Positions 165 to 13,832 of a DNA stretch of 43,169 nt are shown here, piece after piece. The stretch comes from a virus: IMG/VR virus record IMGVR_UViG_3300046168_000039, positions 1 to 43,169 of that record. One strand, 5' to 3'. Each line of letters begins with the position of its first letter. Position 1 is the first letter of the stretch. The translations under genes were made by a program, and so were the position numbers. The notes beneath the pieces are model-generated. The model was not told the origin of the DNA. It did no database searches and was given only the letters and a program-made list of their open reading frames with translations.

Positions 165-244
165 GTGATTAAATACCCCACAATCATCGCACAAATGATG
201 CACACGATGATTAATCCCCAATCTGCATAATCTTCCCAATTCAT
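161..244 (-). CDS. 27-residue single-pass membrane microprotein
   Basis: A 27-codon frame is wedged between the helicase loader and the next gene, with an ATGA overlap at both ends. The product has a short acidic, aromatic N-terminus (MNWEDYADWG), then about 17 hydrophobic residues (LIIVCIICAMIVGYLI), which is enough for one membrane helix. No family is recognised. The double start/stop overlap is the main evidence that it is translated. Its function is unknown. A second 27-residue membrane peptide with the same double-overlap layout lies at 35872-35955. Confidence 0.5.
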   Translation of the reverse strand: MNWEDYADWGLIIVCIICAMIVGYLIT

Positions 245-969
245 ACCTTGAATACCTCCTGTTTTTCAGTGTTATTAAAAATAAAGACCTCACTGGTCTC
301 TCTCAGTCTTTCCAAAAGTGCGTGACCTCTACGCTTGTCCAAAAATAGACTAATTGCTTCCTTTGATTTCACTTGAGTGGTAATGAGATTTGGAAGCTTC
401 CGTGCCATCCGTTGTTCGATAACCTCAAATAAGCCCTTCTGCGTTGTCTCCGTTAGCTTTTCAGCAAAGAGGTCATCGATTGCGAGAACTGGCACTGTAG
501 TGACCTCCTTGAACCACTGACGGTATTGTGTGCCTCGCTTGGCATCCACCAGTTCCGTGTGAAAGTCACCTGCAAAGAATGCCTTGAATAAAATGCGTTG
601 CTTGTGGAGTTGCTGAAGTAGCAAACAGAGTGATCTGGTCTTGCCCTGTCGTGAATCACCGAGCAAATACAACCCTTTCTTGCGGTTTAAATCCCATGTG
701 AGGATATTTGCTAGGTTATCCTTACCTGCCTTGGGCAAACGGTTTAATTCAGTCTCACGGTAGAACACTGGGATTAAATCCTCAATAGGTGCTTGGTAGC
801 CTACCGCAGGTGGTTCATTAGCCTCTCTCTCATGGTATGCATCGCAACAAGTGTCACACACTGCTACATCCTGTCTGCCTCCAAATAAAGGTTGATTGAT
901 TAGTTCCTCTGTCCAACCAGAGTCTTCACCGCATTCTCGGCATGGAATAATTGTTGTTGTAGTTGTCAT
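241..969 (-). CDS. DnaC-like replicative helicase loader (AAA+ ATPase)
   Basis: The 242-residue product has a Walker A motif GDSRQGKT at about residues 104-111, a Walker B VLAIDD at 161-166 and a sensor-like TTQ near 198. This is the layout of DnaC/IstB-type AAA+ ATPases. N-terminal pairs CREC (10-13) and CDTC (38-41) could bind zinc. Helicase loaders of this family deliver the host DnaB helicase to an origin marked by an initiator. Here the gene directly follows a putative initiator that contains an iteron array, the same order as lambda O and P. No phage helicase is visible, so the host helicase is the likely partner. The family is clear; the loader role is inferred from context. Confidence 0.8.
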   Translation of the reverse strand: MTTTTTIIPCRECGEDSGWTEELINQPLFGGRQDVAVCDTCCDAYHEREANEPPAVGYQAPIEDLIPVFYRETELNRLPKAGKDNLANILTWDLNRKKGLYLLGDSRQGKTRSLCLLLQQLHKQRILFKAFFAGDFHTELVDAKRGTQYRQWFKEVTTVPVLAIDDLFAEKLTETTQKGLFEVIEQRMARKLPNLITTQVKSKEAISLFLDKRRGHALLERLRETSEVFIFNNTEKQEVFKV

Positions 970-972
970 AAA

Positions 973-1425
973 TTAAAAATCGTCTTCAGTGAAATTACCG
1001 TTCGTTACGGTCACTGGTTTTGCCTCAAGTGTTTTCTTTCCGAAATACCATCCAACATACCCAGATGATATCGCCCTGTTTAAACGGTCTATGATTCCAT
1101 CAATTCCTTCGACCTCATAGATTGCCTCAAAGTCACGAAATGCTTGTTTGAGTTGGGAATCCTTAATTGTCTTCCGCTTGGATTTGCAGTAGTTGCACCA
1201 ATCGTCCCATGCCTCTTCCAATGTTGGGTCACTTATTATTAATTTATATTTATTATTATTTAATATATATAATATATAAGGTGCACCTTGAGAACTGGGT
1301 ATGGTATCACCAGTGGTATCACTGTTGGTATCACTGGTGATACCACTGCCCTTTTTCTCAACCTCGCCAGTCACAGTTAAATTTGTAGTAATGGTATCAC
1401 CAGTGATACCACTTTTCTTGATCAT
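973..1425 (-). CDS. Putative replication initiator (lambda O-like position), contains the origin
   Basis: The frame is open from an ATG at 1503 (176 residues). The ATG at 1425 (150 residues) is preferred because it lies 4 bases after the stop of the upstream gene and is preceded by GGTGAT, a match to the 3' part of the Shine-Dalgarno consensus. The N-terminal part is low-complexity and is encoded by the iterons (GDT and GIT repeats), followed by a stretch encoded by pure A/T. The C-terminal half looks like a folded helical domain (PTLEEAWDDWCNYCK ... GYVGWYF), similar in feel to C-terminal parts of phage replication proteins. Its partner would be the DnaC-like loader just downstream. The initiator role is inferred from gene order and embedded repeats, not from a recognised DNA-binding fold. 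Confidence 0.55.
   Translation of the reverse strand: MIKKSGITGDTITTNLTVTGEVEKKGSGITSDTNSDTTGDTIPSSQGAPYILYILNNNKYKLIISDPTLEEAWDDWCNYCKSKRKTIKDSQLKQAFRDFEAIYEVEGIDGIIDRLNRAISSGYVGWYFGKKTLEAKPVTVTNGNFTEDDF
1233..1279. other. A/T-only tract, probable DNA unwinding element
   Basis: These 47 consecutive bases contain no G or C. The tract lies 24 bases from the nearest iteron and inside the coding frame of the putative initiator, where it encodes a Y/I/L/N/K-rich segment. Origins of the lambda O and plasmid Rep type place such a tract next to the iterons as the site of first melting. That role is inferred here from composition and position. Confidence 0.65.
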
Positions 1426-1501
1426 GGTATCACCAGGTGATACCACTTTCATTTTGCGATCTTGGTTGAATGGTATCACTGGTGATACCACTGGTGATAC
1501 C
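1303..1501. repeat. Iteron array: 11 copies of GGTATCAC in both orientations
   Basis: On the plus strand GGTATCAC starts at 1303, 1315, 1327, 1393, 1426 and 1472. Its reverse complement GTGATACC starts at 1337, 1403, 1437, 1482 and 1494. Four pairs face each other as GGTATCAC-(2 or 3 bases)-GTGATACC. Copies at 1303/1315/1327 and at 1482/1494 are spaced 12 bases apart, close to one helical turn. The array lies inside the putative initiator frame and the end of the ribbon-helix-helix gene. Beside an A/T-only tract, this is the architecture of an iteron-type replication origin. Confidence 0.8.
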
Positions 1502-1654
1502 ATTCAAAGCCAAGTTTGTGCATCGTTTGTGCTCAATGATACAATGTTTCACTGCCTCATTGATGCTCAAACCATACTCCTCGCAGAGTTCACCAATGTA
1601 CTCTTTTAAAGCCACTGGTAACCTCAAGGTTACTTTATAATCAGAATGGGACAT
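1430..1654 (-). CDS. Arc/MetJ-like ribbon-helix-helix DNA-binding protein
   Basis: The 74-residue product begins with a strand-like YKVTLRLPVALKEYI segment followed by EYGLSINEAVKHCI, which is the strand-helix-helix pattern of Arc-type repressors. The ATG at 1654 is chosen over an upstream extension because GAGGAGG lies about 5 bases before it, within the end of the SSB-like gene (14-base overlap). The C-terminal tail (NGITSGITSDTI) is translated from the origin iterons. Arc-family proteins are usually small transcriptional repressors. Its own position on the iterons makes autoregulation or an origin-accessory role possible, but neither is shown. Confidence 0.7.
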   Translation of the reverse strand: MSHSDYKVTLRLPVALKEYIGELCEEYGLSINEAVKHCIIEHKRCTNLALNGITSGITSDTIQPRSQNESGITW

Positions 1655-2105
1655 CGTCCTCCTCTTCCTCACCGTACACCTCATTATCGATTGCATCTTG
1701 TACGGTTTCAGATGCATCAGTGCCATTATCCCTTACCTCAATGTCCTCTGCGGTAGTCGCTTTATTCCACTTGATAATGCATTTGTAACCTCCCTTATTT
1801 TCTCCAGTCACTCCACTAAATGATTCTCCAATTATTTGGTCAAATGCTCCCAGTGTTAACTCCCAAGAACCATCTTCTTTCTGCGATGCGATTTCCTCAA
1901 AAGCAGGTGCAGTTAAGCCAAATGCTTCAAATACAACCTCCGTTTTCCAGTGTGCCTTCTTCGAGAAAAATAGTGACTCGTAAATTGCATCATCCTCACC
2001 ATTTCCGATCATCATAGTAATGTATCGGTTACCTTTTCTGGTAACTAGCGTTTCCCCATCTTTATTCTCAGTAAAGATATCAATTAATTTTAAGTTTTGT
2101 TCCAT
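1641..2105 (-). CDS. Putative single-stranded DNA-binding protein with SSB-type acidic tail
   Basis: The 154-residue product ends in EEEEDDVPF, closely resembling the C-terminal tip (DDDIPF) by which bacterial SSB recruits host repair and replication proteins. The body is beta-rich (RYITMMIGNGEDDAIYES, GGYKCIIKW), compatible with an OB-like fold, but I do not recognise a canonical SSB core. It lies among recombination and replication genes downstream of the ERF protein and exonuclease. The tail is seen directly; the ssDNA-binding function is inferred from tail and context. A DUF669-like phage SSB is the main alternative description. Confidence 0.6.
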   Translation of the reverse strand: MEQNLKLIDIFTENKDGETLVTRKGNRYITMMIGNGEDDAIYESLFFSKKAHWKTEVVFEAFGLTAPAFEEIASQKEDGSWELTLGAFDQIIGESFSGVTGENKGGYKCIIKWNKATTAEDIEVRDNGTDASETVQDAIDNEVYGEEEEDDVPF

Positions 2106-2107
2106 AT

Positions 2108-2311
2108 TTATTTGTTTTTTTGAATTGCATGGGAGAAACTCACTCCCATCATTTTTGCGTAATTTTTACCTGCCTTCTCAGCTTCAGCTTCAGTTCGTGC
2201 CTCAACCTCAAGTAACTTTGAAATAACTTTCTTAAATGGTTTTTGAATCTGACGGTAGCCAATGATTTCCCATTTTTTAAGACCGTGGACTTTACTTGAC
2301 TCTCTTGGCAT
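2108..2311 (-). CDS. Small basic hypothetical protein in replication operon
   Basis: The 67-residue product is lysine-rich with two predicted helices (PFKKVISKLLEVEARTEAEA, then AGKNYAKMMGVSF). The ATG at 2311 overlaps the TGA of the exonuclease gene (TGATG), so translation is probably coupled; a GTG one codon upstream is also possible. No family is recognised. Its place between an exonuclease and an SSB-like gene suggests a role in DNA metabolism, without further support. Confidence 0.6.
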   Translation of the reverse strand: MPRESSKVHGLKKWEIIGYRQIQKPFKKVISKLLEVEARTEAEAEKAGKNYAKMMGVSFSHAIQKNK

Positions 2312-3012
2312 CACAGATTCCTTTCCTGCATATCTCCATGAAGTGCTCCTGCGATCTTCCAGAACTTCTCAACCATCCCTTTTAGGTCACCGTCTGCAAA
2401 GTCCAGAGTTACATCAAAATCACCTGCGTGGTGATAACCTATAGCACATGGGTTTGAGTAGCGTGGATCGAGTCCTGCCTTATCAACTATTGAGTTAATG
2501 TGGTTCTGCCTAGCATCCTCAATCTTGGCATCAATCTTATCTTGATCCTTGAGGTTTCCTACCTTCACATTTTCTGGTTTAAATGCAGGTGCTTGTGCCT
2601 TGATCAATTCAATTGATTTTGGCTCAGTCTCAATATCAAACATGGTGCATTTATCCAGTTGCCAGAGACCAAATGCTCTTGATTGCCTTCGGTAAATCTC
2701 CAGAACCAGTTCCACATCTTTTGTAAGATATTCAATCTGGTCACTTCGGTTCATCTGGTAAAAGAATTTACCGTTACCTTCCTTGCCAGATAAACCATAT
2801 GCTTTGGCTAAGTTGCCCAGTGATATCATTTCACCATATTTGCCAAGACCATTAATAAGCTGAGTATCGACAAAAACATCTGGATAATACCTGCCTTTTC
2901 CCCTACCAAATGGTGTGAGAAAACTAGGCACTTTAATCCCATTATAGGAACTCCAGTTCATTAAATATCTTATATCGAAATCGATGATGTTATGTCCGAC
3001 TAATTTACCCAT
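2311..3012 (-). CDS. DEDDy 3'-5' exonuclease with circularly permuted motif order
   Basis: The product (233 residues) matches the PolB-exonuclease-like DnaQ-fold family, but in swapped order. Motif II comes first (GHNIIDFD, N8 and D13), then motif III (YLTKD, Y95 and D99), and motif I (FDIETEP, D126 and E128) comes after. The segment after motif I (insert with KVGNLKDQDKI, then PCAIGYHH ... EKFWKI) is what normally precedes the GHN motif. All four acidic residues of the DEDD site are present. The start is well supported: GGAGGG lies 7 bases before the ATG, inside the end of the ERF gene (8-base overlap). Beside an ERF annealing protein it probably supplies or trims recombination ends. The family is clear; activity of the permuted form is untested. 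Confidence 0.8.
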   Translation of the reverse strand: MGKLVGHNIIDFDIRYLMNWSSYNGIKVPSFLTPFGRGKGRYYPDVFVDTQLINGLGKYGEMISLGNLAKAYGLSGKEGNGKFFYQMNRSDQIEYLTKDVELVLEIYRRQSRAFGLWQLDKCTMFDIETEPKSIELIKAQAPAFKPENVKVGNLKDQDKIDAKIEDARQNHINSIVDKAGLDPRYSNPCAIGYHHAGDFDVTLDFADGDLKGMVEKFWKIAGALHGDMQERNL

Positions 3013-3640
3013 TTTCTGCCCTCCATTGTTCTGCTTGGTTCATAAGGGTTGATGGTTTCGTTTTCAGAAACTTTTCGTTCCTATCATCCTTGGCATCTCG
3101 TGGAATGTAGGAAATACCATTTGCCCAATCCTCAATCTTTAGCTCAACCAATTTATCTTGGCATCTTTCTACTAAAGATTTTGTGGGTGCAGGTTTAGCC
3201 TTTGGTTTTGGTGCAGGTTTCTTAACCACACCATCCGTATCCTCCTCGGCAGGAAGTGCGAATACACAACCAAGAGCATACTTTTTTGCATACGATATGC
3301 ATGAACCATTTGCTTGGCTCGCATTCATGCCCTTGGCATCCTCCAGAGGGTGCTCATAGAAACTGGGTTGAGTCCTTTGCCCACTCTTGTGGACGATAAA
3401 AGTCTCAATGCCAATATGACCGTCCTTGGCAGGTTGAAGATTTTGCTCAAACCAAAGACCGTGCTTTGGTAATACATTTCTTAGGATCGCAACGATTTGA
3501 TCCAATCCTGCGTATTTGTATCCATACCCTTTTGTATCTTTGACTGGGTTTGTGAGTTCCGCTTGAGCCGAAACAATAGCAGAATAAATTTCCGCAAAAC
3601 CCAACGAGTGATCGTGAATAATATGTTTTTCATCTTCCAT
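3005..3640 (-). CDS. erf: ERF-family single-strand annealing recombinase
   Basis: The 211-residue product has the ERF-family hallmarks: YGYKYAGLDQIVAILR near residue 40, a conserved PKHGLWF turn, and an ISYAKKYALGCVFAL segment near 115-130 followed by an acidic stretch. A proline/lysine linker (PKPKAKPAPTK) leads to a small C-terminal domain. ERF proteins anneal complementary single strands during phage recombination and genome circularisation. The gene lies with an exonuclease, an SSB-like protein and a resolvase-like nuclease, a coherent recombination module. The start overlaps the stop of the upstream HTH gene (TAATG). Confidence 0.85.
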   Translation of the reverse strand: MEDEKHIIHDHSLGFAEIYSAIVSAQAELTNPVKDTKGYGYKYAGLDQIVAILRNVLPKHGLWFEQNLQPAKDGHIGIETFIVHKSGQRTQPSFYEHPLEDAKGMNASQANGSCISYAKKYALGCVFALPAEEDTDGVVKKPAPKPKAKPAPTKSLVERCQDKLVELKIEDWANGISYIPRDAKDDRNEKFLKTKPSTLMNQAEQWRAENG

Positions 3641-3819
3641 TATTTTGCCTCCGCAGGAATTTCGTATTGCTCTAATGCTTTGAGAACTTTTTCTGGTTGA
3701 AATCGAACAGTTGCACCTATTTTTAAAAAAGGGATTATCTGCTTATTTCTGAGGTTGTTAATGCTCCGTGGGCAAAGCTGAAGAAAATCAGCAATTTCTT
3801 TTGTATTATATAATTTCAT
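3640..3819 (-). CDS. Small HTH_17/excisionase-like DNA-binding protein
   Basis: The 59-residue frame overlaps both neighbours (ATGA at its start, TAATG at its end). The product reads as a MerR/excisionase-type winged helix: YNTKEIADFLQLCPRSINN is the helix-turn-helix, and KIGATVRFQPEKVLKALEQ is the wing and third helix. Such proteins act as recombination directionality factors or small transcription regulators. The integrase lies about 530 bases upstream in the same direction, so an excisionase role is possible. It is equally likely to be a regulator of the replication operon. Confidence 0.7.
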   Translation of the reverse strand: MKLYNTKEIADFLQLCPRSINNLRNKQIIPFLKIGATVRFQPEKVLKALEQYEIPAEAK

Positions 3820-4124
3820 TTGTTTATTAGTTGTAGTAGATCATCCAATCTGAGCGTAATCAGATTTTCAGAGTTGTTTTTTCGGTGGATTACGCAGGGT
3901 GGTTTCTCACCCTTTGAATCCGAAATTGCTTGTGTCATTGCTTGGTAGAGATTCAGCTTTTCTACCCTCTTTGCCTCGATGTGAAATGGGAATGTAGAGA
4001 CCACATCTGGGTCACCATTTGCACCGCAGTACTGTTGTCCCCTGCGACTAGGAAATCCGTTGTCATTTAAAATATGGGCAATCTCTCGCTCATACCGTGC
4101 TCCTTTTGCTCTAGAGTTTGTCAT
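3816..4124 (-). CDS. PD-(D/E)XK nuclease, Holliday junction resolvase-like
   Basis: The 102-residue product has the pattern RAKGARYEREIAHIL, GDPDVV and HIEAKRVE: a conserved E, then D, then ExK, as in Hjc-like resolvases and related phage PD-(D/E)XK nucleases. The ATG at 4124 is preferred to an upstream TTG because AAGGA lies about 10 bases before it. It heads the recombination module and overlaps the HTH gene by ATGA. Resolution of branched recombination or replication intermediates is the likely role. The fold is well supported; substrate specificity is inference. Confidence 0.75.
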   Translation of the reverse strand: MTNSRAKGARYEREIAHILNDNGFPSRRGQQYCGANGDPDVVSTFPFHIEAKRVEKLNLYQAMTQAISDSKGEKPPCVIHRKNNSENLITLRLDDLLQLINK

Positions 4125-4188
4125 TATTTTCAATCCTTTCTTCTAAGTCGGAATATAAATCTTGAATGTACCCTGCTAATTCTTCCAT
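4111..4188 (-). CDS. 25-residue hypothetical peptide upstream of the nuclease
   Basis: A 25-codon frame starts at the ATG at 4188 and overlaps the nuclease gene by 14 bases. The product is acidic and helical (LAGYIQDLYSDLEERIE). AGGG lies about 6 bases before the ATG. The frame stays open upstream for 17 more codons to a TTG. It could be a leader peptide of the operon or a real small protein. Confidence is low because of its length. Confidence 0.35.
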   Translation of the reverse strand: MEELAGYIQDLYSDLEERIENNDKL

Positions 4189-4350: not shown

Positions 4351-5583
4351 CTACACCCTCAGATCGTTCTTATGTGCAGTAAGGTCACTATAGTACCTCT
4401 CGCACACTGCGACTGAGTTTCTGAGCGTCTTACTCGCATGGTAAATACCTGCGGTGGTAGCCAACCTCGCTCCAAGAATTTTACGCAAACGGTGACAAGC
4501 TTTGTTGTCAGTGATGCCTAAATCCTGCTTTAAGAATTTAACGAACCTCTTGTGCAATCTAAGTCCACCTTGGATTACATTCTCATCATAAGAGGCAGAT
4601 GAGAAGTGTTCGAATAATTTAGAAGAAATACCAACCTTTTCCACATGGTCAGTATTTTTTAATCTGCTACGCTTCGTAGCAAAAGGTAGCAACAAGAAAT
4701 GTTGCCCATTGAAAGTAGTGAAATCTCTACCCTTGACTTGATAAATTTCTGATGCCCTTAATCCTGCACCAAAAGCCAAAAGATAGATGTCGTAAAACAC
4801 TGGATGTGTCTCACGGTTTGCTTCAAAGAAAGATATTATTCTTTCAACCTCATTGTCATCGGTAGTAAAAGGTTGGGACACTGTTGACTCTGCAATGTAA
4901 TTAACAAAGTTAGCAAAATTACCAGTGTCCCAACCTTCCCTTTTGAACAACAACAGATTTCGTTTAGAGAAAAGTGATCTGATTTGCCTAATTTTGTGAG
5001 GCAATCCGTATTTCTTAGCCCACTGCTCTGGCAATGTTCTACCAGTGTGGTCAGTGTCTAGGAATGATTCAGTAGATTCATCCAGTGACCTACCTTCTCT
5101 CTTGTAAAGGTCTTTTAAATGACTGACTGACTTCTTACGAGTGGCTAATGCTCCACCGCATTCATCATTCTCAATAATCCAGTCGAGGAACTCACGCACG
5201 GTAATATCACCATCCGCTTTTCGGATAGTGCGAGTTACAATATCAAGAACATCTGATTCTGTTAATTCTTCAAATCCACAATTTAAAGGAATGCGGTAGC
5301 TATTGTCTTTGTAATAAAATTTGAGGGATAACTTAGAATTTTGACACTCAATAGAGATGTCAACGGGAAGCTTCAATTGTGGTGAATTAAGAACAAATTT
5401 ATGCAGTTCTGCAATATATTTGATGTTTGAATTTTTAGTATTTCGAAATTCATACACATCCTGTCCGATATTGCACAAAGCTTCCCCACCTTTCTCATTA
5501 AAAGAATGGAGGCGCGGGTCGGAATCGAACCGACGAATAGGAGATTTGCAGTCCCCAGTACGCTCTATTGGCTCAGTTGGCAT
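4351..5583 (-). CDS. int: Tyrosine-family site-specific integrase
   Basis: The 410-residue product ends in a tyrosine recombinase catalytic domain: GLRASE with R276, TKR with K304, HRLRK with H364 and R367, and the terminal ERYYSD with Y397/Y398. The usual second histidine (LGHSS in most relatives) is replaced by TLRNS, so N389 stands there. A SAM-like core-binding domain spans roughly 125-235. The first 30 residues (for example TGDCKSPIRRFDSDPR) are translated from a tRNA-Cys 3' fragment, so the start may change after integration. No Shine-Dalgarno precedes the ATG at 5583. It would recombine the phage site with the host tRNA-Cys gene. Confidence 0.85.
   Translation of the reverse strand: MPTEPIERTGDCKSPIRRFDSDPRLHSFNEKGGEALCNIGQDVYEFRNTKNSNIKYIAELHKFVLNSPQLKLPVDISIECQNSKLSLKFYYKDNSYRIPLNCGFEELTESDVLDIVTRTIRKADGDITVREFLDWIIENDECGGALATRKKSVSHLKDLYKREGRSLDESTESFLDTDHTGRTLPEQWAKKYGLPHKIRQIRSLFSKRNLLLFKREGWDTGNFANFVNYIAESTVSQPFTTDDNEVERIISFFEANRETHPVFYDIYLLAFGAGLRASEIYQVKGRDFTTFNGQHFLLLPFATKRSRLKNTDHVEKVGISSKLFEHFSSASYDENVIQGGLRLHKRFVKFLKQDLGITDNKACHRLRKILGARLATTAGIYHASKTLRNSVAVCERYYSDLTAHKNDLRV
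5507..5556 (-). other. attP: Probable attP core: 3' part of tRNA-Cys(GCA)
   Basis: Read on the minus strand, these 50 bases carry a complete anticodon arm with loop CTGCAAA (anticodon GCA, cysteine). A perfect T arm follows (GTCGG-TTCGATT-CCGAC), then CCGCGCC and TCCA, the 3' acceptor strand with encoded CCA. No matching 5' half (a GGCGCGG acceptor strand plus D arm) lies upstream, so this is not an intact tRNA. Such identity blocks beside a tyrosine integrase are the standard attP, and crossover would rebuild the host tRNA-Cys. The single internal copy indicates the free, non-integrated form of the genome. Confidence 0.85.
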
Positions 5584-6578: not shown

Positions 6579-6774
6579 TTTCCTCTGGATTCTTTGGTTC
6601 TGGTTCTACATCTGGGAGTGTCTGGGCGATAGTTGCTGAGATAATAGTATTAGCGTTGTCTGGGAATATATTGCCCTTCCATCCGATGCCACTCGCTTCA
6701 GCACTTTTTTTCAAATACTCTGATTTTTGGGCAAAGGTCATTTTTTTCAATTCTTCTGAAGTAGGCTTATTCAT
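6562..6774 (-). CDS. Hypothetical protein following the giant virion gene
   Basis: The 70-residue frame starts with an ATGA overlap on the stop of the 2353-residue gene. The product has a helical N-terminus (SEELKKMTFAQKSEYLKKS) and an acidic, proline-rich end (DVEPEPKNPEENEREN). No family is recognised. Coupling to the giant gene suggests late expression and possibly a virion or morphogenesis role. Confidence 0.6.
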   Translation of the reverse strand: MNKPTSEELKKMTFAQKSEYLKKSAEASGIGWKGNIFPDNANTIISATIAQTLPDVEPEPKNPEENEREN

Positions 6775-9700
6775 TTCTTTATCCTACCACTTTTACTTGA
6801 TGAATCAAAAAGATAATTTGTCTTTGCAGACTTTCTTAAATTACCTCCAATTAAATCTGTTGATTTTCCTTCTCCTAAAATATTCTTTCCAAGTGTCTGA
6901 AATTGCTTCTCGGAAAAATACGATGACCTGCCCTCGTTGGCTTTATCTTGGGGTCTGTATGCCCATAGGATGTTTTTCTTCTGTGCCTTGGTTGCCTTCT
7001 TTTTGTCCTTACTTTTCACCCTGTCTGTTAAGCGTTTAAACGCTTTCTTTTCAACAGTCCCTTTTGTGAAATAATTTTTCTTTTCATTTGATTTGAAAAT
7101 AGTCTTTACCTCTTCCTTCATCAAAACCGCATCATCCTTGTCGAGGAATCCCTCTAATCCTGCAATGTCCACTAGTTCTTGAACCTCTGCCATCGCATTC
7201 TCTCTGAGCTTAGAGGTATTGTAGTGCTTACTGGAAACTTTCTCAGCTTGATTGTAAATTCTTTGAACTGAGTCTGCTACCTGCGGTAAACCATCATACT
7301 TGCGGTTCTGTAAATTATTTATTTTAGCCTTAGTAAGATTAAAAACATCTCTTGCAAATGCAGTCCGTGCGGTAGGTCTTTCTGGCTTAACTGGCATCGA
7401 ATCTGATCGAGTGTAATTATCTGCAACTAACTGCTCAGTTTTATATGTAGGTACATTGTGCTTACCCATGATCTGTCTTATTGCAGTTTCATTGTTAATT
7501 ATCTCATTCGATAACCTCTCTGGTTTGTAGTACAAGTCAGCAATAAACATCCCCTCGGTTGATTCCGTAAACCCAGTAAGGAAACTATCACCATCACCAT
7601 CAACTAAGGTTGAGAGGTCAGTGAAGAAATTCTTTTTCTGGGTAGCATCGAGTTGAGTGGTGTCAAAGGTAACTGCTTCATTGAGTCCACCCATATTAAC
7701 CTCTTTGACTGTTGGTCTACGGAAAACATTACCATCCGCTTGATCAAGTCCTCTACTAATTTCTACCATCACTTGGTTCACCACTGATGGGTCACCCTTT
7801 AGTGCCATTGTGATGTTAGGTGCTACCGCAGTGACTCCATTCTCAGTGTATCCACCTTGCCCTACCTTGACCTCATCAACCCTCATTCTAAGACCGTGAC
7901 CATCCGCAATCTGTTGCAGTTGTTCACCAAGTCCCTGCGAAAACTTTTCGGTTATTGCTTGTTGCCCCATTAATTTTTCTTGAGCTTGAACTGCAAGTGC
8001 TTCTTTGGATGCACCAAATGTAGTCACCTCAAATGGTAAAATTTGTGTTGCCGTTTTATTATATGAGTCGGTAACCGCAGACATTATTTGTGTGGCACTT
8101 GTCGGCAATTCTCCACCAAAAGTTTTGTCCGCTTGAGTCATCAACATATCAATTACCTGCTGACTATTTGGTAAATCTTTTACCGACTGTATCTGTTGAC
8201 CTAACTCTGACAATTTCATCGTTGCCTCATACAACGGTGTAAACCTATCCCCAAATAAAACTAAATTTTGATTGGCAGGTAATGGATTATCTAGCTTGGT
8301 TAATGCCCATAAAATTTCCTGTGCATTCCTCGCATATAATTTCTTCTTACCAAAAAATTTAGCGTACCCTGCCTTATTTAATTCATCTGCAATGAGACCA
8401 TCTACGGTCTGGTGGGCATCATACAATGCACCTCCACCCTTGGGTGTTAAACCGTCTTCGTCTGCCTTGGTGTAGTAAGACCATTCCGTAGTAGCATCAA
8501 TAGGTTCATTCTGCCTTACCGCCCAGTTGTCCTCATTCCAATCTTTTCTGCCATCAATCTGGAGAGCATTAGCTTGCTGATGCTTAATCTCCTTGGTGTG
8601 CTGATACCGCATCTGTTTCATTGCCTCGTTCCAGTACTTACCGTGTGCTTTATGAACCTTTCTATGCTTCTCCACTGACCAGTGAAAGGGCGATTTCATC
8701 TGTTGTTTTGCTCGCTTAGAGATTGGAATGTAGGCAGGGTGAGCGTATCCCTTTCCTGCCATATCCCACATATCTACTGTGGCTAAACCATCCAGTAATT
8801 GTTGGAGTTTAATCGCATCTTTAGGTGATAAATTCTGCCCCTTCTTGGTCAATCCAAGTGTCTTAGATGCACGGTCAAGAAGTATATCCACATCTCTTTG
8901 AGTACCCTCTACCTTAGCAATCTCGATTAGTTCAGCTAGACCATTAAGGTAAAAATTTCTTACCTTGTCATCAGCACCAATGGCATCTGGATCAAGGACT
9001 TCAAAGTGCTCTCCCCTATCCCATTCTTTTGCGGTACGGTTACCTGCAATCTGTTGATCAGCAGGATTAATCTTATGCCCTGCCCTTGATCCATGAGGGT
9101 GCATCATTGACCGTGCTGACTTAGTCATATTTGCTGACACTGCTGACCGTGGAGAACCTAGTGCTAGGAATCTTAACTGTAGGTCTGCGACATCGAACAA
9201 AGTCCTTTCTGGGAACTTTATAACCTGTGCCATTTGATAGGCAGTGTTCCCCATGTCCGAATAAAACAGTGCCGTTCTTTGTGCAAAGTCTGGATACTTT
9301 TCTTTAGTATATTCTATTTTCGTAACAATAGATTTAATGAGGTCAGTCACATCCTTGTAACTTGAGAACATACCTTTTTTATTGGCATTAATAATTCCCA
9401 TTCTGGCAGGTAGTGCAACACTACCATCAATTTCATTATCACCGTAATCTTTGATAGTCAATTGTGACTCTACTGCCTTCTTGTTACCCTCTAGTTTTTT
9501 AATCTTATGGGTAAGTTCAACATGATACTTCGCATCACCGTATGCCTTTGACCACTCTCCTCCCAGTGCCTCCTCAATTGATTTATTTGGGTTCTCCTTG
9601 AGCACCTGTTTTTGCTCTGGAGTGAGTGAGTCTATAGCATAGGAAAGAGTATCCTTTTTAATTTGCTCTGCTTCTTTAGCTTGCTTTTCTGCCAATTGCT

Positions 9701-12700
9701 CTGGGGTCAACTTACCCTTGGAGGGCATAAACTTGATATTAGGTTTTCCTTGCTCAATTGACCCATCTTTATTGATGATTAACCACTCTGGCATTGGATA
9801 TTCATCACTGATTACTTTTGCAATAACTGTATCATTTTTGCCATTTTCGTAACTTATGAGACCTTTGTCGTGTAATCTGTCTAAGGCATTTATTTGATAA
9901 AATGTCGTGCGGACTCTAGAAAGGGGTACTGGGTCTGAACTTTTTTTCGGAAAAGCAATTAAGTTATTATCACCATCCTTTAAACCACTACCCTCTTTAC
10001 CTTTGGATGGCATGAAGCTTCGTCCTTCTGGAACAAAGGCAGGAGGATAAGAAATTGAAGTTGGTTTAGACTTAGTCCCTACCTCAATATCGTGGAACAT
10101 AAATCCAACATGATCGTTAGGAGCATACATCCCAAGAAACCCTTGTTTCTTTAAGAAAGTTTCAAATGCAGTCTGCCTACCTGCACCTATAGTGTTTCCA
10201 GTCTTTCCGTTACCTGCCTCTTGTATCCCTTGTTCCGCAACAAATGCCTCAAAGTCGTACAGGAACTCTTTAGTATTATAATGAGGTTTGCCAGTCCAAA
10301 GATTATTTTTATCAATCTTTGTGTGGTGTGCGAAATCTGTAATTAAACCTTTCTCTGGCTTATAATTTCCATCACCAAAATATGTTCTATTAGAATATAA
10401 TTCTGGGTAGTTTGCCTTGCGACTACCTTCCGCACCTTTTATTCCAGTGCCATGAAAGTCAGTCTTTAGGACTTTTCTTCTGACTGGTCTGGTTGGGAAG
10501 TGGACGAAGTCAACGAATCCTCCTCCTTCTTCAACTCTGCCCTTCTCTCCTCTGATAGATAAGGGTGATCCGTCATGTTCATACCCATCTTTGAGACGAT
10601 TTCCTCCGCTTCTTCTTGGGTCATCTTGGCGATAATTTCTGCGTAGTTTGGAATCATAATCTATTGGTTTTAATTGTTTATCAACTGACATTACACCGTT
10701 CTCTATGGCAGTGGCAATGTCATTGTTTAATCCTAAGTGAAGTGATTTTTGGAAATCTAAAGTGCCATCTGGTTTCCAGATATCTTGACTTCTTAAATGG
10801 GACTCCATTCGCATATTGCCCTCATTCGGTCTGTACATTGGGTAAGGTTTTAATCTACCACTGAACTCACCACTCTCAATGTTCTTCAAAGATGGCATAA
10901 ATGAAGTCGTACCACTCCAATTTATTTTCCTTTGCTTGGCATGATTCATACCCACTGATCTGGAGGGCATGAAATTATTCTTCATGTTGTTGTAGTCTAC
11001 TGCGAAACCTTTTGTGCCAGTAGTATTTGCTCCCACTAACTCACCGATCTGGTAACTCTTAATGGCATTTTTCATACCATTGCCTTCCTTTGCCCAGAAC
11101 TGTTTATTAATTGGGTCTTTTAAAACATCTGCTTTAAGTGTGGTAGAACCAAATGCAATTGCAAATAATTCATTCTCCCCTTTTCCCTGTGGATTAATGG
11201 GGTCTTCTCTACCGTATTTCTTAAATGCATTTTGTGCGTGTGCAGTCAATGCATCTGCAAATTTCTGTGGGTCATTATTGTATTTTTTTAACAACCCTGC
11301 CTGTGCCATTGCTTGGATATTCGACTCAACAATTTCATTATTATATGCCATCACCTTCATGGATGGATACGAAATTTTTTCTTCCCCAGTTTTTCTATTT
11401 TTATTTTTTCTGGGTGCTTTAGGGGAGAACTGATAACCGAATAAAGTTATGTCATGGATGTAATATGGATTGTAGTCTGACCACTGTCCTTGGTGACCAC
11501 TTCTCTTTCCAATCCGAACTCGTTCTCTAGATGCAATCAAGGTATCTACCATGTCCACAATTGCATCCATCACATCTGGACGAAGTGAATTATTTTTCAA
11601 GTAGTCACGAATGAGAGGATGCATATTTTGATTAGAGGCATCCCTTCCAAGACCAACATATTTCTTATCTAAATCCTTGGTCACCTTTTCCATGATGTCG
11701 CTAAACTCATCGAACATCTGTTGGTCTTTTAAAATAAAATCATTACCTGCTAATAAGTCCCAAGTCAGTCCACCATTGGTTTTTTTGAATGAAGACTGTG
11801 CAGTGTCACCTTGTTTTGGAAAAACTTTCTGACCAGTGTCAACCGCATCTGCCCTCGCCTGTTGAACCTCCATTGCCTCACTTAAATAGTTCTTATAAAG
11901 ATTCTTTAATGGTTTTGGAATTTTAGCAAAAGGTAGGATTGCATTCTCTGCCCCAGTCTTTGGGTTTATGATTCCAAATTTTGCCAATGCATCTCTCGCA
12001 CCACCAAGTAACAGTGAACGAAATTGTGGTTCAAACATATCAAAAACATTTGGATTCTGTCCGAAATAAGTGGCAAACATATCTGCACCCATTTCCTCTG
12101 CAAGCATACCTGCGTCCTTTAAAATTCTATCTGCTTGCTCTGGACTTGTCTTGCGAACACGGTCTGCATAATTCTGTGCGAATGACATTGCCTCACCGTT
12201 TAAACGCACTGACTCCATTCCTTTTATTTTGTTCCCATCCTTATCAAGGAAGAAAAATTCTTTACCCTCTGGGTCTTCATAACTTTCAAGAACCTGCCTT
12301 CTGGTTGTGATGTCTTTCCCTAAATGTTGTTGCATGAAGTGATGCCCAAACTCATGTGCGAAAATATGGGATGCCTCTGCCACTGCACCCTGCATATCAT
12401 TTTTATTTAAAATCATTAACCCCATATCACGATCATAGTGGGCAGACGGTGCATCTTTTGGATCAAGTCCCAATGCACCTGCAAACTCATTCAGATCGAC
12501 TATCTGCATCCGCATTTTTTCAACTGGTGCAAGTGCATCCATAGTTGAAAGTAAAACTGCACTGGATGGACTTGCCTTTGCTAACTCAGTAATTGCCTCA
12601 GTGTGTATGACAGAATTTTTCTTTGCAATATACTCACGAATACCCTGCTGAGATCGTGCGGTAAGATTCCCTCTGACATCTAATGCATTGCTATCCTTAC

Positions 12701-13832
12701 CACTACCTCGTTGTCCAATTGCACCACCGATCCCACCACCCATTCCAAGACCAGTACCGAATGCCATACCTGCCTGTTCATCAGTTGCACCACTAGCATA
12801 CTGAAGTGCAGATTGTAGTATCCCTGCGGATGTTCCACCTACCATTGCATCGAATGCAACATCGTACATTTTCGTGCCAAGAAGTTTATGGGAAGTTGTC
12901 GCTAGTTTTCTGACCTTCTCACTTACATTTGGATCAGTTGCTAGACGATATAAAAATCTTTCATGCGAACTTGGTCTGGCAAAAACTCGTGCAATATCAG
13001 CACTGTTCCTACCTATCTTTTCTCCATACTTAGTTGCTATCTTTCCAATCTCTAAAGCAACTGGTGCAAGCCAGATGGAACTACCTCCATCGACAAACGC
13101 ACTCACTCCAATAAATGACGAAACTTTTCCTGCGGTTGAACCTGCTATTTTTTCTGGAACTTTAAGACCTCGATGAACTGTGCCTAAACCTTTTGCTCCA
13201 TACTCTAAAATTGGTGCTACTGTTTTTGCACCTCCCTTGATCACACCTCTGACTCCTCCAGTGTAACCCTTGACGAGCACTCCACTGCCTCCTGCGATAT
13301 TTGTTATGTCGGCAATGTCTGCTCCTGCCCTCATGTCCCCCATGTACTTTCCACCTGCCTTTGCCTCGATTAATTTCTCACGAGCATCTGTCATGTAATT
13401 AATCATCTCAACTTGTCTGCGGTGATGATTCGCTTTCTTGGTTTCCTCTGGAAGATCATCATCCTCATTGAATCGCTCAACAATCATTTTGCCGATTCTA
13501 GCTAAGTCTCTAGTGCCAACCTCTGGCATTGCCATAAGTGCTTTGTATGCATCTGGGTCACCCTTGCCTCCTAGTACCTCTGGCAGTAAACCCTTAACTA
13601 TTGACTCATCATTTAAAGCACCTCCCCAAGTCTCTTCAAAGTAATCGATCATTTCTGGAATTGCTCCAATAAATGCTTTTGTCGATTGCCATGTAGACCT
13701 ATTTTTTTGCCGATCATACTCTGCATCAGATTCTGCACGAGTAGGTATAAGACTATTCCTCTTAGGAACTTTTACATTTTGCTTCGTGGTTGGAAGCTTC
13801 CTAAAGGATGATGGAAGTTTTATTTCTGGCAT
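6771..13832 (-). CDS. Giant polyvalent internal virion protein with zinc-peptidase motif and ART-like region
   Basis: The 2353-residue product is of the kind called phage polyvalent proteins, which are packaged and injected with DNA. Residues about 170-375 contain glycine-rich, partly hydrophobic stretches that could contact membranes. A gluzincin-type zinc site is visible: HEFGH at 493-497 with a downstream AEEMGADMFATYFG that can supply the third ligand. Residues about 1105-1270 (FVDFVHF, FHGTG with H1127, NRTYFGDGNYKPEKG, then a glycine-rich GFLGMYAP) resemble the ADP-ribosyltransferase-like domain of polyvalent proteins. The tetrapeptide FMPS recurs at F954, F978, F1273 and F1368, around that region. 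The long C-terminal part is helical and unassigned. Expected role: ejection and early host takeover. Peptidase motif confident, ART assignment moderate. Confidence 0.75.
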   Translation of the reverse strand: MPEIKLPSSFRKLPTTKQNVKVPKRNSLIPTRAESDAEYDRQKNRSTWQSTKAFIGAIPEMIDYFEETWGGALNDESIVKGLLPEVLGGKGDPDAYKALMAMPEVGTRDLARIGKMIVERFNEDDDLPEETKKANHHRRQVEMINYMTDAREKLIEAKAGGKYMGDMRAGADIADITNIAGGSGVLVKGYTGGVRGVIKGGAKTVAPILEYGAKGLGTVHRGLKVPEKIAGSTAGKVSSFIGVSAFVDGGSSIWLAPVALEIGKIATKYGEKIGRNSADIARVFARPSSHERFLYRLATDPNVSEKVRKLATTSHKLLGTKMYDVAFDAMVGGTSAGILQSALQYASGATDEQAGMAFGTGLGMGGGIGGAIGQRGSGKDSNALDVRGNLTARSQQGIREYIAKKNSVIHTEAITELAKASPSSAVLLSTMDALAPVEKMRMQIVDLNEFAGALGLDPKDAPSAHYDRDMGLMILNKNDMQGAVAEASHIFAHEFGHHFMQQHLGKDITTRRQVLESYEDPEGKEFFFLDKDGNKIKGMESVRLNGEAMSFAQNYADRVRKTSPEQADRILKDAGMLAEEMGADMFATYFGQNPNVFDMFEPQFRSLLLGGARDALAKFGIINPKTGAENAILPFAKIPKPLKNLYKNYLSEAMEVQQARADAVDTGQKVFPKQGDTAQSSFKKTNGGLTWDLLAGNDFILKDQQMFDEFSDIMEKVTKDLDKKYVGLGRDASNQNMHPLIRDYLKNNSLRPDVMDAIVDMVDTLIASRERVRIGKRSGHQGQWSDYNPYYIHDITLFGYQFSPKAPRKNKNRKTGEEKISYPSMKVMAYNNEIVESNIQAMAQAGLLKKYNNDPQKFADALTAHAQNAFKKYGREDPINPQGKGENELFAIAFGSTTLKADVLKDPINKQFWAKEGNGMKNAIKSYQIGELVGANTTGTKGFAVDYNNMKNNFMPSRSVGMNHAKQRKINWSGTTSFMPSLKNIESGEFSGRLKPYPMYRPNEGNMRMESHLRSQDIWKPDGTLDFQKSLHLGLNNDIATAIENGVMSVDKQLKPIDYDSKLRRNYRQDDPRRSGGNRLKDGYEHDGSPLSIRGEKGRVEEGGGFVDFVHFPTRPVRRKVLKTDFHGTGIKGAEGSRKANYPELYSNRTYFGDGNYKPEKGLITDFAHHTKIDKNNLWTGKPHYNTKEFLYDFEAFVAEQGIQEAGNGKTGNTIGAGRQTAFETFLKKQGFLGMYAPNDHVGFMFHDIEVGTKSKPTSISYPPAFVPEGRSFMPSKGKEGSGLKDGDNNLIAFPKKSSDPVPLSRVRTTFYQINALDRLHDKGLISYENGKNDTVIAKVISDEYPMPEWLIINKDGSIEQGKPNIKFMPSKGKLTPEQLAEKQAKEAEQIKKDTLSYAIDSLTPEQKQVLKENPNKSIEEALGGEWSKAYGDAKYHVELTHKIKKLEGNKKAVESQLTIKDYGDNEIDGSVALPARMGIINANKKGMFSSYKDVTDLIKSIVTKIEYTKEKYPDFAQRTALFYSDMGNTAYQMAQVIKFPERTLFDVADLQLRFLALGSPRSAVSANMTKSARSMMHPHGSRAGHKINPADQQIAGNRTAKEWDRGEHFEVLDPDAIGADDKVRNFYLNGLAELIEIAKVEGTQRDVDILLDRASKTLGLTKKGQNLSPKDAIKLQQLLDGLATVDMWDMAGKGYAHPAYIPISKRAKQQMKSPFHWSVEKHRKVHKAHGKYWNEAMKQMRYQHTKEIKHQQANALQIDGRKDWNEDNWAVRQNEPIDATTEWSYYTKADEDGLTPKGGGALYDAHQTVDGLIADELNKAGYAKFFGKKKLYARNAQEILWALTKLDNPLPANQNLVLFGDRFTPLYEATMKLSELGQQIQSVKDLPNSQQVIDMLMTQADKTFGGELPTSATQIMSAVTDSYNKTATQILPFEVTTFGASKEALAVQAQEKLMGQQAITEKFSQGLGEQLQQIADGHGLRMRVDEVKVGQGGYTENGVTAVAPNITMALKGDPSVVNQVMVEISRGLDQADGNVFRRPTVKEVNMGGLNEAVTFDTTQLDATQKKNFFTDLSTLVDGDGDSFLTGFTESTEGMFIADLYYKPERLSNEIINNETAIRQIMGKHNVPTYKTEQLVADNYTRSDSMPVKPERPTARTAFARDVFNLTKAKINNLQNRKYDGLPQVADSVQRIYNQAEKVSSKHYNTSKLRENAMAEVQELVDIAGLEGFLDKDDAVLMKEEVKTIFKSNEKKNYFTKGTVEKKAFKRLTDRVKSKDKKKATKAQKKNILWAYRPQDKANEGRSSYFSEKQFQTLGKNILGEGKSTDLIGGNLRKSAKTNYLFDSSSKSGRIKK
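10466..10657 (-). CDS. Possible overprinted gene inside the giant virion gene
   Basis: A 63-codon ATG frame lies in another frame of the same strand, over residues about 1059-1122 of the giant protein. Its product has unusually protein-like composition (IIAKMTQEEAEEIVSKMG, then EERRAELKKEEDS). In the same stretch the giant protein is oddly R/G-rich and low-complexity (RQDDPRRSGGNRLKDGYE). No Shine-Dalgarno is present. It may be a chance frame in a 7-kb gene, so this is a low-confidence call. Confidence 0.2.
   Translation of the reverse strand: MIPNYAEIIAKMTQEEAEEIVSKMGMNMTDHPYLSEERRAELKKEEDSLTSSTSQPDQSEEKS

Follow-up and report, generated by a model that had tools for sequence, protein, structure and literature searches.

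A gene carried by an uncultured virus is best explained, when the evidence is taken as a whole, as a true circular permutant of an enzyme of the PolB-exonuclease-like (DEDDy, DnaQ-fold) kind, a reading that we hold with high confidence. It lies in IMG/VR virus record IMGVR_UViG_3300046168_000039 (positions 1 to 43,169, metagenomic source), and this whole stretch of 43,169 nucleotides is hereafter called the window. The gene is a single frame of 233 codons on the minus strand, running from an ATG at 3012 down to a stop at 2311, and its translation bears out the observation of an earlier note that the exonuclease motifs follow one another without interruption in the order II (GHNIIDFD), III (YLTKD) and I (FDIETEP). 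The protein starts with MGKLVGHNIIDFDIRYL (motif II), continues through EYLTKDVEL (motif III) and TMFDIETEPK (motif I), and ends with EKFWKIAGALHGDMQERNL. The ribosome-binding site GGAGGG, also pointed out in that note, is present before the ATG and within the final part of the upstream ERF gene; GGAGGGCAGAAAATG stands 5' of the exonuclease frame, and 8 nt of that frame are shared with the 3' end of the ERF gene. The note's interpretation, a cut and rejoining within the fold, is supported by a full-length match after rotation, by conservation of the order in a divergent clade and by a rotated series of predicted structural elements. The features of the locus are as follows.

241..969, minus strand: DnaC-like helicase loader, used as an order-blind lineage marker (PHROG 50, 2e-17)
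973..1503, minus strand: "rep" (the name is a guess: replication-initiator-like), same operon; iteron-like repeats in its 5' part
1641..2105, minus strand: SSB-like protein, after the exonuclease; assigned only from position and an acidic C-terminus ending in DDVPF
2108..2314, minus strand: small ORF of 68 aa between the exonuclease and SSB-like genes; only in the window, L001 and L002/L003
2311..3012, minus strand: DEDDy (PolB-exonuclease-like, DnaQ fold) exonuclease of 233 aa, read as circularly permuted from its translation, profile matches and an order conserved in 19 other contigs
2626..2637, minus strand: motif I, D126-I-E128-T129; D126 and E128 invariant (17/17)
2647..2715, minus strand: fusion region, residues 100-122, defined by the D-III to D-I spacing; helix 89-113 then strand 122-131 in the model
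2716..2730, minus strand: motif III, Y95-x3-D99; invariant in 17/17 permuted and 22/22 canonical sequences
2974..2997, minus strand: motif II, GHNIIDFD, residues 6-13 (G6-H7-N8...F12-D13), with catalytic D13; invariant in the same 17/17 and 22/22
3005..3640, minus strand: ERF-family single-strand annealing protein, 8-nt overlap with the exonuclease start (Pfam ERF, 5e-26; PHROG 155, 4e-31)
3019..3024, minus strand: ribosome-binding site GGAGGG, 5' of the exonuclease ATG and within the ERF gene end (from the sequence)
3816..4133, minus strand: Holliday-junction-resolvase-like/PDDEXK_15 phage endonuclease, same module (Pfam PDDEXK_15, 7e-8; PHROG 244, 5e-22)

Rotation Restores a Full-Length Family Match

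PolB-exonuclease-like proteins form cluster F.12 of the RNase H-like superfamily (PMC3985635). When the native window protein was compared with a canonical profile built from 59 distinct normal-order relatives, its two halves matched in swapped positions, residues 3-109 to profile 115-219 (84.6 bits) and residues 122-222 to profile 8-108 (85.9 bits). With each half found at about 85 bits, a chance origin of the motif order is highly unlikely. Rotation of the protein, as the note had proposed, restored a single domain spanning profile 10-219 at 178.4 bits, and the same pattern of two swapped half-domains in the native form and one domain in the rotated form was seen in 11/11 permuted proteins tested. 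The normal-order sequences had been gathered with permuted halves as bait, which may favour homology, not order. Scoring of all rotations of the window protein gave a plateau of best cuts at residues 108-121, in agreement with the position at which the note had placed the join.

Comparisons with phage genomes and protein families lead to the same picture. When rotated, the protein of the nearest relative, L001, can be aligned over 93-96% of its length with PolB-like exonucleases of normal order from GenBank phages (MW202520, E 6e-7, and MN988538, E 7e-8); native window protein searches of the same phages gave a coverage of at most 46% among the matches listed. In a joint alignment, rotated permuted and normal-order proteins run in parallel from motif I through motif III. 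PHROG 403 ("DNA polymerase exonuclease subunit"), itself in normal order, matches window residues 4-110, the motif II/III half, and a weak match of residues 122-219 falls at the N-terminal end of PHROG 9556 (DNA polymerase family). Against PF10108, with its gathering score of 24 bits, the native window protein scored 13.7 bits over residues 3-94 and the rotated one 15.5 bits. L001 and L002 rose from 22.5 and 22.8 bits in native form to 25.4 and 25.9 when rotated, and L203 and L208 reached 26.3 and 26.9 bits in native form. Motifs and sequence family are those of the PolB-exonuclease-like proteins, with the gathering score reached by rotated L001/L002 and native L203/L208 and missed by the window protein in either form, and homology to the family extends over the whole domain after rotation. 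The family order I-II-III is not met, the window protein instead having the order II-III-I and termini that lie before motif II and after alpha-A.

The junction is compact. In permuted proteins 24-26 residues separate D-III from D-I, while canonical proteins have 12-17 residues from the motif III aspartate to the C-terminus and one normal-order protein, L035, has four from its likely start methionine to the motif I aspartate. From these spacings, the natural termini are joined via only a few extra residues. The fusion region comprises the end of the motif III helix (the former C-terminus), a short linker (approximately residues 114-121) and the start of strand beta-1 (the former N-terminus), and the new termini separate helix alpha-A (EKFWKIAG) from the motif II strand (KLVGHN). 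The definition of a natural circular permutant, namely halves homologous to one family, swapped, and with the former termini joined, is therefore met.

Distribution of the Permuted Order

The permuted order is found in 20 contigs, the window and 19 further IMG/VR contigs from 16 metagenomes (L001, L002, L003, L004, L012, L013, L014, L015, L025, L026, L027, L028, L100, L196, L199, L201, L203, L207 and L208, each counted once). They were collected by scanning IMG/VR with the protein, with alignments and, as an order-blind query, with the adjacent helicase-loader gene; relatives from the protein and alignment scans are collinear over the entire length. Identity to the window protein is 44-79% among the first eight distinct permuted sequences and 36-40% (tblastn) for L026, L027 and the fragment in L028. 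The genes of L028 and L199 run off the contig end. Pairwise dN/dS among permuted exonucleases is 0.06-0.20, which indicates purifying selection. In L201 (778-1479) the surroundings of motif II have diverged (AGHMSNKYD in place of VGHNxxxFD) with the aspartate kept, and L199 (2-625) holds a truncated, near-identical copy of this gene.

Beyond these viruses the order was not encountered. Among GenBank phages and cultured relatives, no record matched a native permuted protein over as much as 80% of the sequence; a first scan of cellular genomes gave no permuted relatives, and a second gave non-permuted relatives only. A survey for independent further permutations found none: 152 reading frames (with overlapping loci) gave a single full-length normal-order domain, and every permuted frame found in the survey falls in the phage lineage described here.

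Origin of the Permutation

Permuted proteins form a single clade of 17 rows (support 100/99) in a tree of rotated and normal sequences, and this clade is recovered in trees of both halves (SH-aLRT 97 and 98). The helicase-loader gene divides the phages likewise (94/94). Contigs of a sister lineage (L210, L211, L212, L213 and L214, of which L212 is also named L029 and L213 L030) have an exonuclease at the same locus, with the common gene order ERF - exonuclease - SSB-like - rep - helicase loader; their neighbours are alike and their exonucleases differ in being of normal motif order. After rotation, the window protein and its near relatives share approximately 38-40% identity with L029 and L030. 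Since normal-order homologs hold the same genomic position and there is one permuted clade, the permutation probably arose in place, and once.

The route can only be inferred. An ancestral normal-order gene between the ERF and SSB-like genes was probably duplicated in tandem, after which the end of the first copy would have become fused to the start of the second via a few extra residues and the outer halves would have been lost. The resulting chain would begin at the motif II strand and finish after helix alpha-A. No tandem-duplicate intermediate was found.

That both halves derive from a single parent gene is likewise an inference. The motif II/III and motif I halves could instead come from two different exonuclease genes fused in reverse order, for example a resident gene and an incoming one as opposed to two copies of one gene. 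The half trees give this some support, in that the syntenic normal-order genes are the closest group to the motif I half (SH-aLRT 92), and L031/L032/L036/L045/L072 to the motif II/III half (SH-aLRT 73). However, the swapped placement of each half is not rejected (p-AU 0.063 and 0.123), the halves amount to only approximately 120 columns, and the branches are long. A two-parent hybrid is thus not excluded, since the half trees differ without rejecting a common placement, but we regard it as unlikely.

Predicted Fold and Active Site

An AlphaFold2 model of the permuted protein was obtained from eight permuted sequences (pLDDT 75, pTM 0.75), with residues 36-61 and 226-233 mostly below 50. Its predicted elements are E3-5, H9-23, H50-55, H65-71, H81-86, H89-113 and E122-131, followed by H134-140, H157-169, H171-181, E186-195, E201-205 and H210-223, giving the order beta4-helices-motif III helix-beta1-beta2-beta3-alphaA. 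The model of a normal-order control, L030 (pLDDT 90, pTM 0.85), has E10-19, H22-28, H43-68, E73-81, E86-90, H94-110, E114-117, H120-134 ... H200-224, in the order beta1-beta2-beta3-alphaA-beta4-helices-motif III helix. As modeled, and without superposition of the two models, the element series of the permuted protein is a rotation of that of the control. The model did not bear out the note's refuting case of two separate folds.

In the PDB, Foldseek aligned the L030 control with entire exonuclease domains from family B polymerases (E 3.5e-7, 244 columns). These domains share the predicted fold of the control and the DEDDy motif III; they differ from the permuted protein in belonging to a polymerase and keeping the normal order. 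The permuted model had no PDB match under E 0.001, a result attributed to Foldseek aligning in chain order and one that gives no positive support. Its best match among viral models was a 3'-5' exonuclease fragment (100 columns, E 1.7e-7), and a PDB sequence search with the permuted profile gave no match.

A different arrangement to be considered is a domain-swapped assembly, in which two chains exchange halves and the pair forms composite DnaQ folds without closure of a single chain. The shortness of the linker between the motif III helix and beta-1 would suit such an assembly, as would the lower confidence of the monomer model relative to the canonical control (pTM 0.75 vs. 0.85), but the linker is a few residues longer than the two natural ends put together, and the monomer model positions both halves at that same pTM. 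We consider a swapped dimer improbable, and the permuted chain is predicted to fold as a single DnaQ domain that holds the four acids and the tyrosine at their positions, the fold being modeled and the residues observed.

Residues D126, E128, D13, D99 and Y95 are invariant in all 17 distinct complete permuted and all 22 normal-order sequences. All catalytic acids are therefore there, as the earlier note had stated, and with the YxxxD tyrosine the catalytic-residue requirements of a DEDDy PolB-exonuclease-like protein are fulfilled, which makes the permuted protein a DEDDy enzyme by sequence. Its active-site geometry is inferred from the models, no coordinates having been superposed. Activity data are lacking and L201 varies around motif II, so that a remnant without catalysis, serving in structure or DNA binding, can be imagined; the invariance of the acids and of the motif III tyrosine (17/17) and the low dN/dS make this very improbable.

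An assembly or annotation artefact, in which the gene contains a join or consists of a truncated copy plus part of a second, has in its favor only the metagenomic source without a raw-read check. It is a negligible prospect given that 19 other contigs, drawn from 16 metagenomes, show the same order and junction region, and given the purifying selection on the gene and the single exonuclease match in the window record, where no second copy, normal order included, was found. The note's argument against a simple truncation is thereby upheld, and its refuting conditions of an assembly join or of normal order in the closest relatives were not borne out; short of a systematic error common to all, an assembly join or truncation is ruled out by the relatives.

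Genomic Context and Likely Function

The ERF gene stands directly upstream of the exonuclease in the window and at most permuted loci. In L207 (3015-3299) and L027 (5703-5983) approximately 280 nt separate the two genes, which overlap in other members. PolB-like exonucleases of Vibrio phages (e.g., Vibrio phage 1.042.O) also adjoin ERF, and differ in being of normal order. Downstream, the SSB-like gene is a conserved neighbor at permuted and syntenic canonical loci; its product had no Pfam match.

Taken with this context, the exonuclease is most likely an active DEDDy 3'-5' enzyme of the ERF recombination module, activity being inferred with no measurement to support it. Such an enzyme would degrade DNA 3' to 5' with two metal ions, and would prepare or trim ends for the ERF annealing protein in phage recombination and concatemer repair. 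This specific role, inferred from fold and operon, is a reasonable proposal that we modestly favor. No family A or B DNA polymerase was detected in the window record, which may be incomplete; from this and from the module we infer a free-standing 3'-5' exonuclease acting with ERF on DNA ends, and not a proofreading subunit of a polymerase.

Other features of the window were noted. Clustered iteron-like repeats (TGGTATCACTGGTGATACCA) occur at 1301-1503 in several copies, direct and palindromic, in the 5' part of the rep-like gene, and resemble an intragenic origin of replication of the lambda O type. A tyrosine-integrase-like gene (4351-5583) lies upstream of the recombination module and its position is conserved in the permuted lineage, so these phages may be temperate. 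A reading frame of 2353 aa (6771-13832) without a Pfam match probably encodes a giant virion-associated protein.

Novelty and Implications

Circular permutation is itself well known, and has been reported for phage adenine methylases (PMC7824862). The earlier note knew of no described permutant of this fold, and our search of the open-access literature, which leaves subscription literature uncovered, likewise found no earlier description of a circular permutant of a DnaQ-like/RNase H-like exonuclease; the stem "permut" is absent from the classification paper of the RNase H-like superfamily (PMC3985635).

The permuted lineage consists of uncultured viruses infecting bacteria, represented by 20 virus records with active-site residues intact. 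We think it probable that no natural circular permutant of the DnaQ-like (DEDD) exonuclease fold was known before their exonuclease, and that this enzyme is active, has become fixed throughout a phage lineage and has taken the place of an ancestor of normal order at one operon position, where sister phages still carry the normal-order form. If so, the states before and after permutation can be compared directly between permuted phages and their normal-order sisters. Having a natural permutant and normal-order homologs at one locus offers a clean test of whether element order matters to folding and catalysis, and of the way in which a compact viral genome comes to undergo circular permutation.

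Proofreading depends on the DnaQ/RNase H-like fold, as do many nucleases of recombination and RNA decay, and the order of elements serves to recognize family members. Sequence and structure searches built on this order miss or split the permuted exonuclease, and half-length phage matches to exonuclease families may be permuted whole enzymes, not fragments.
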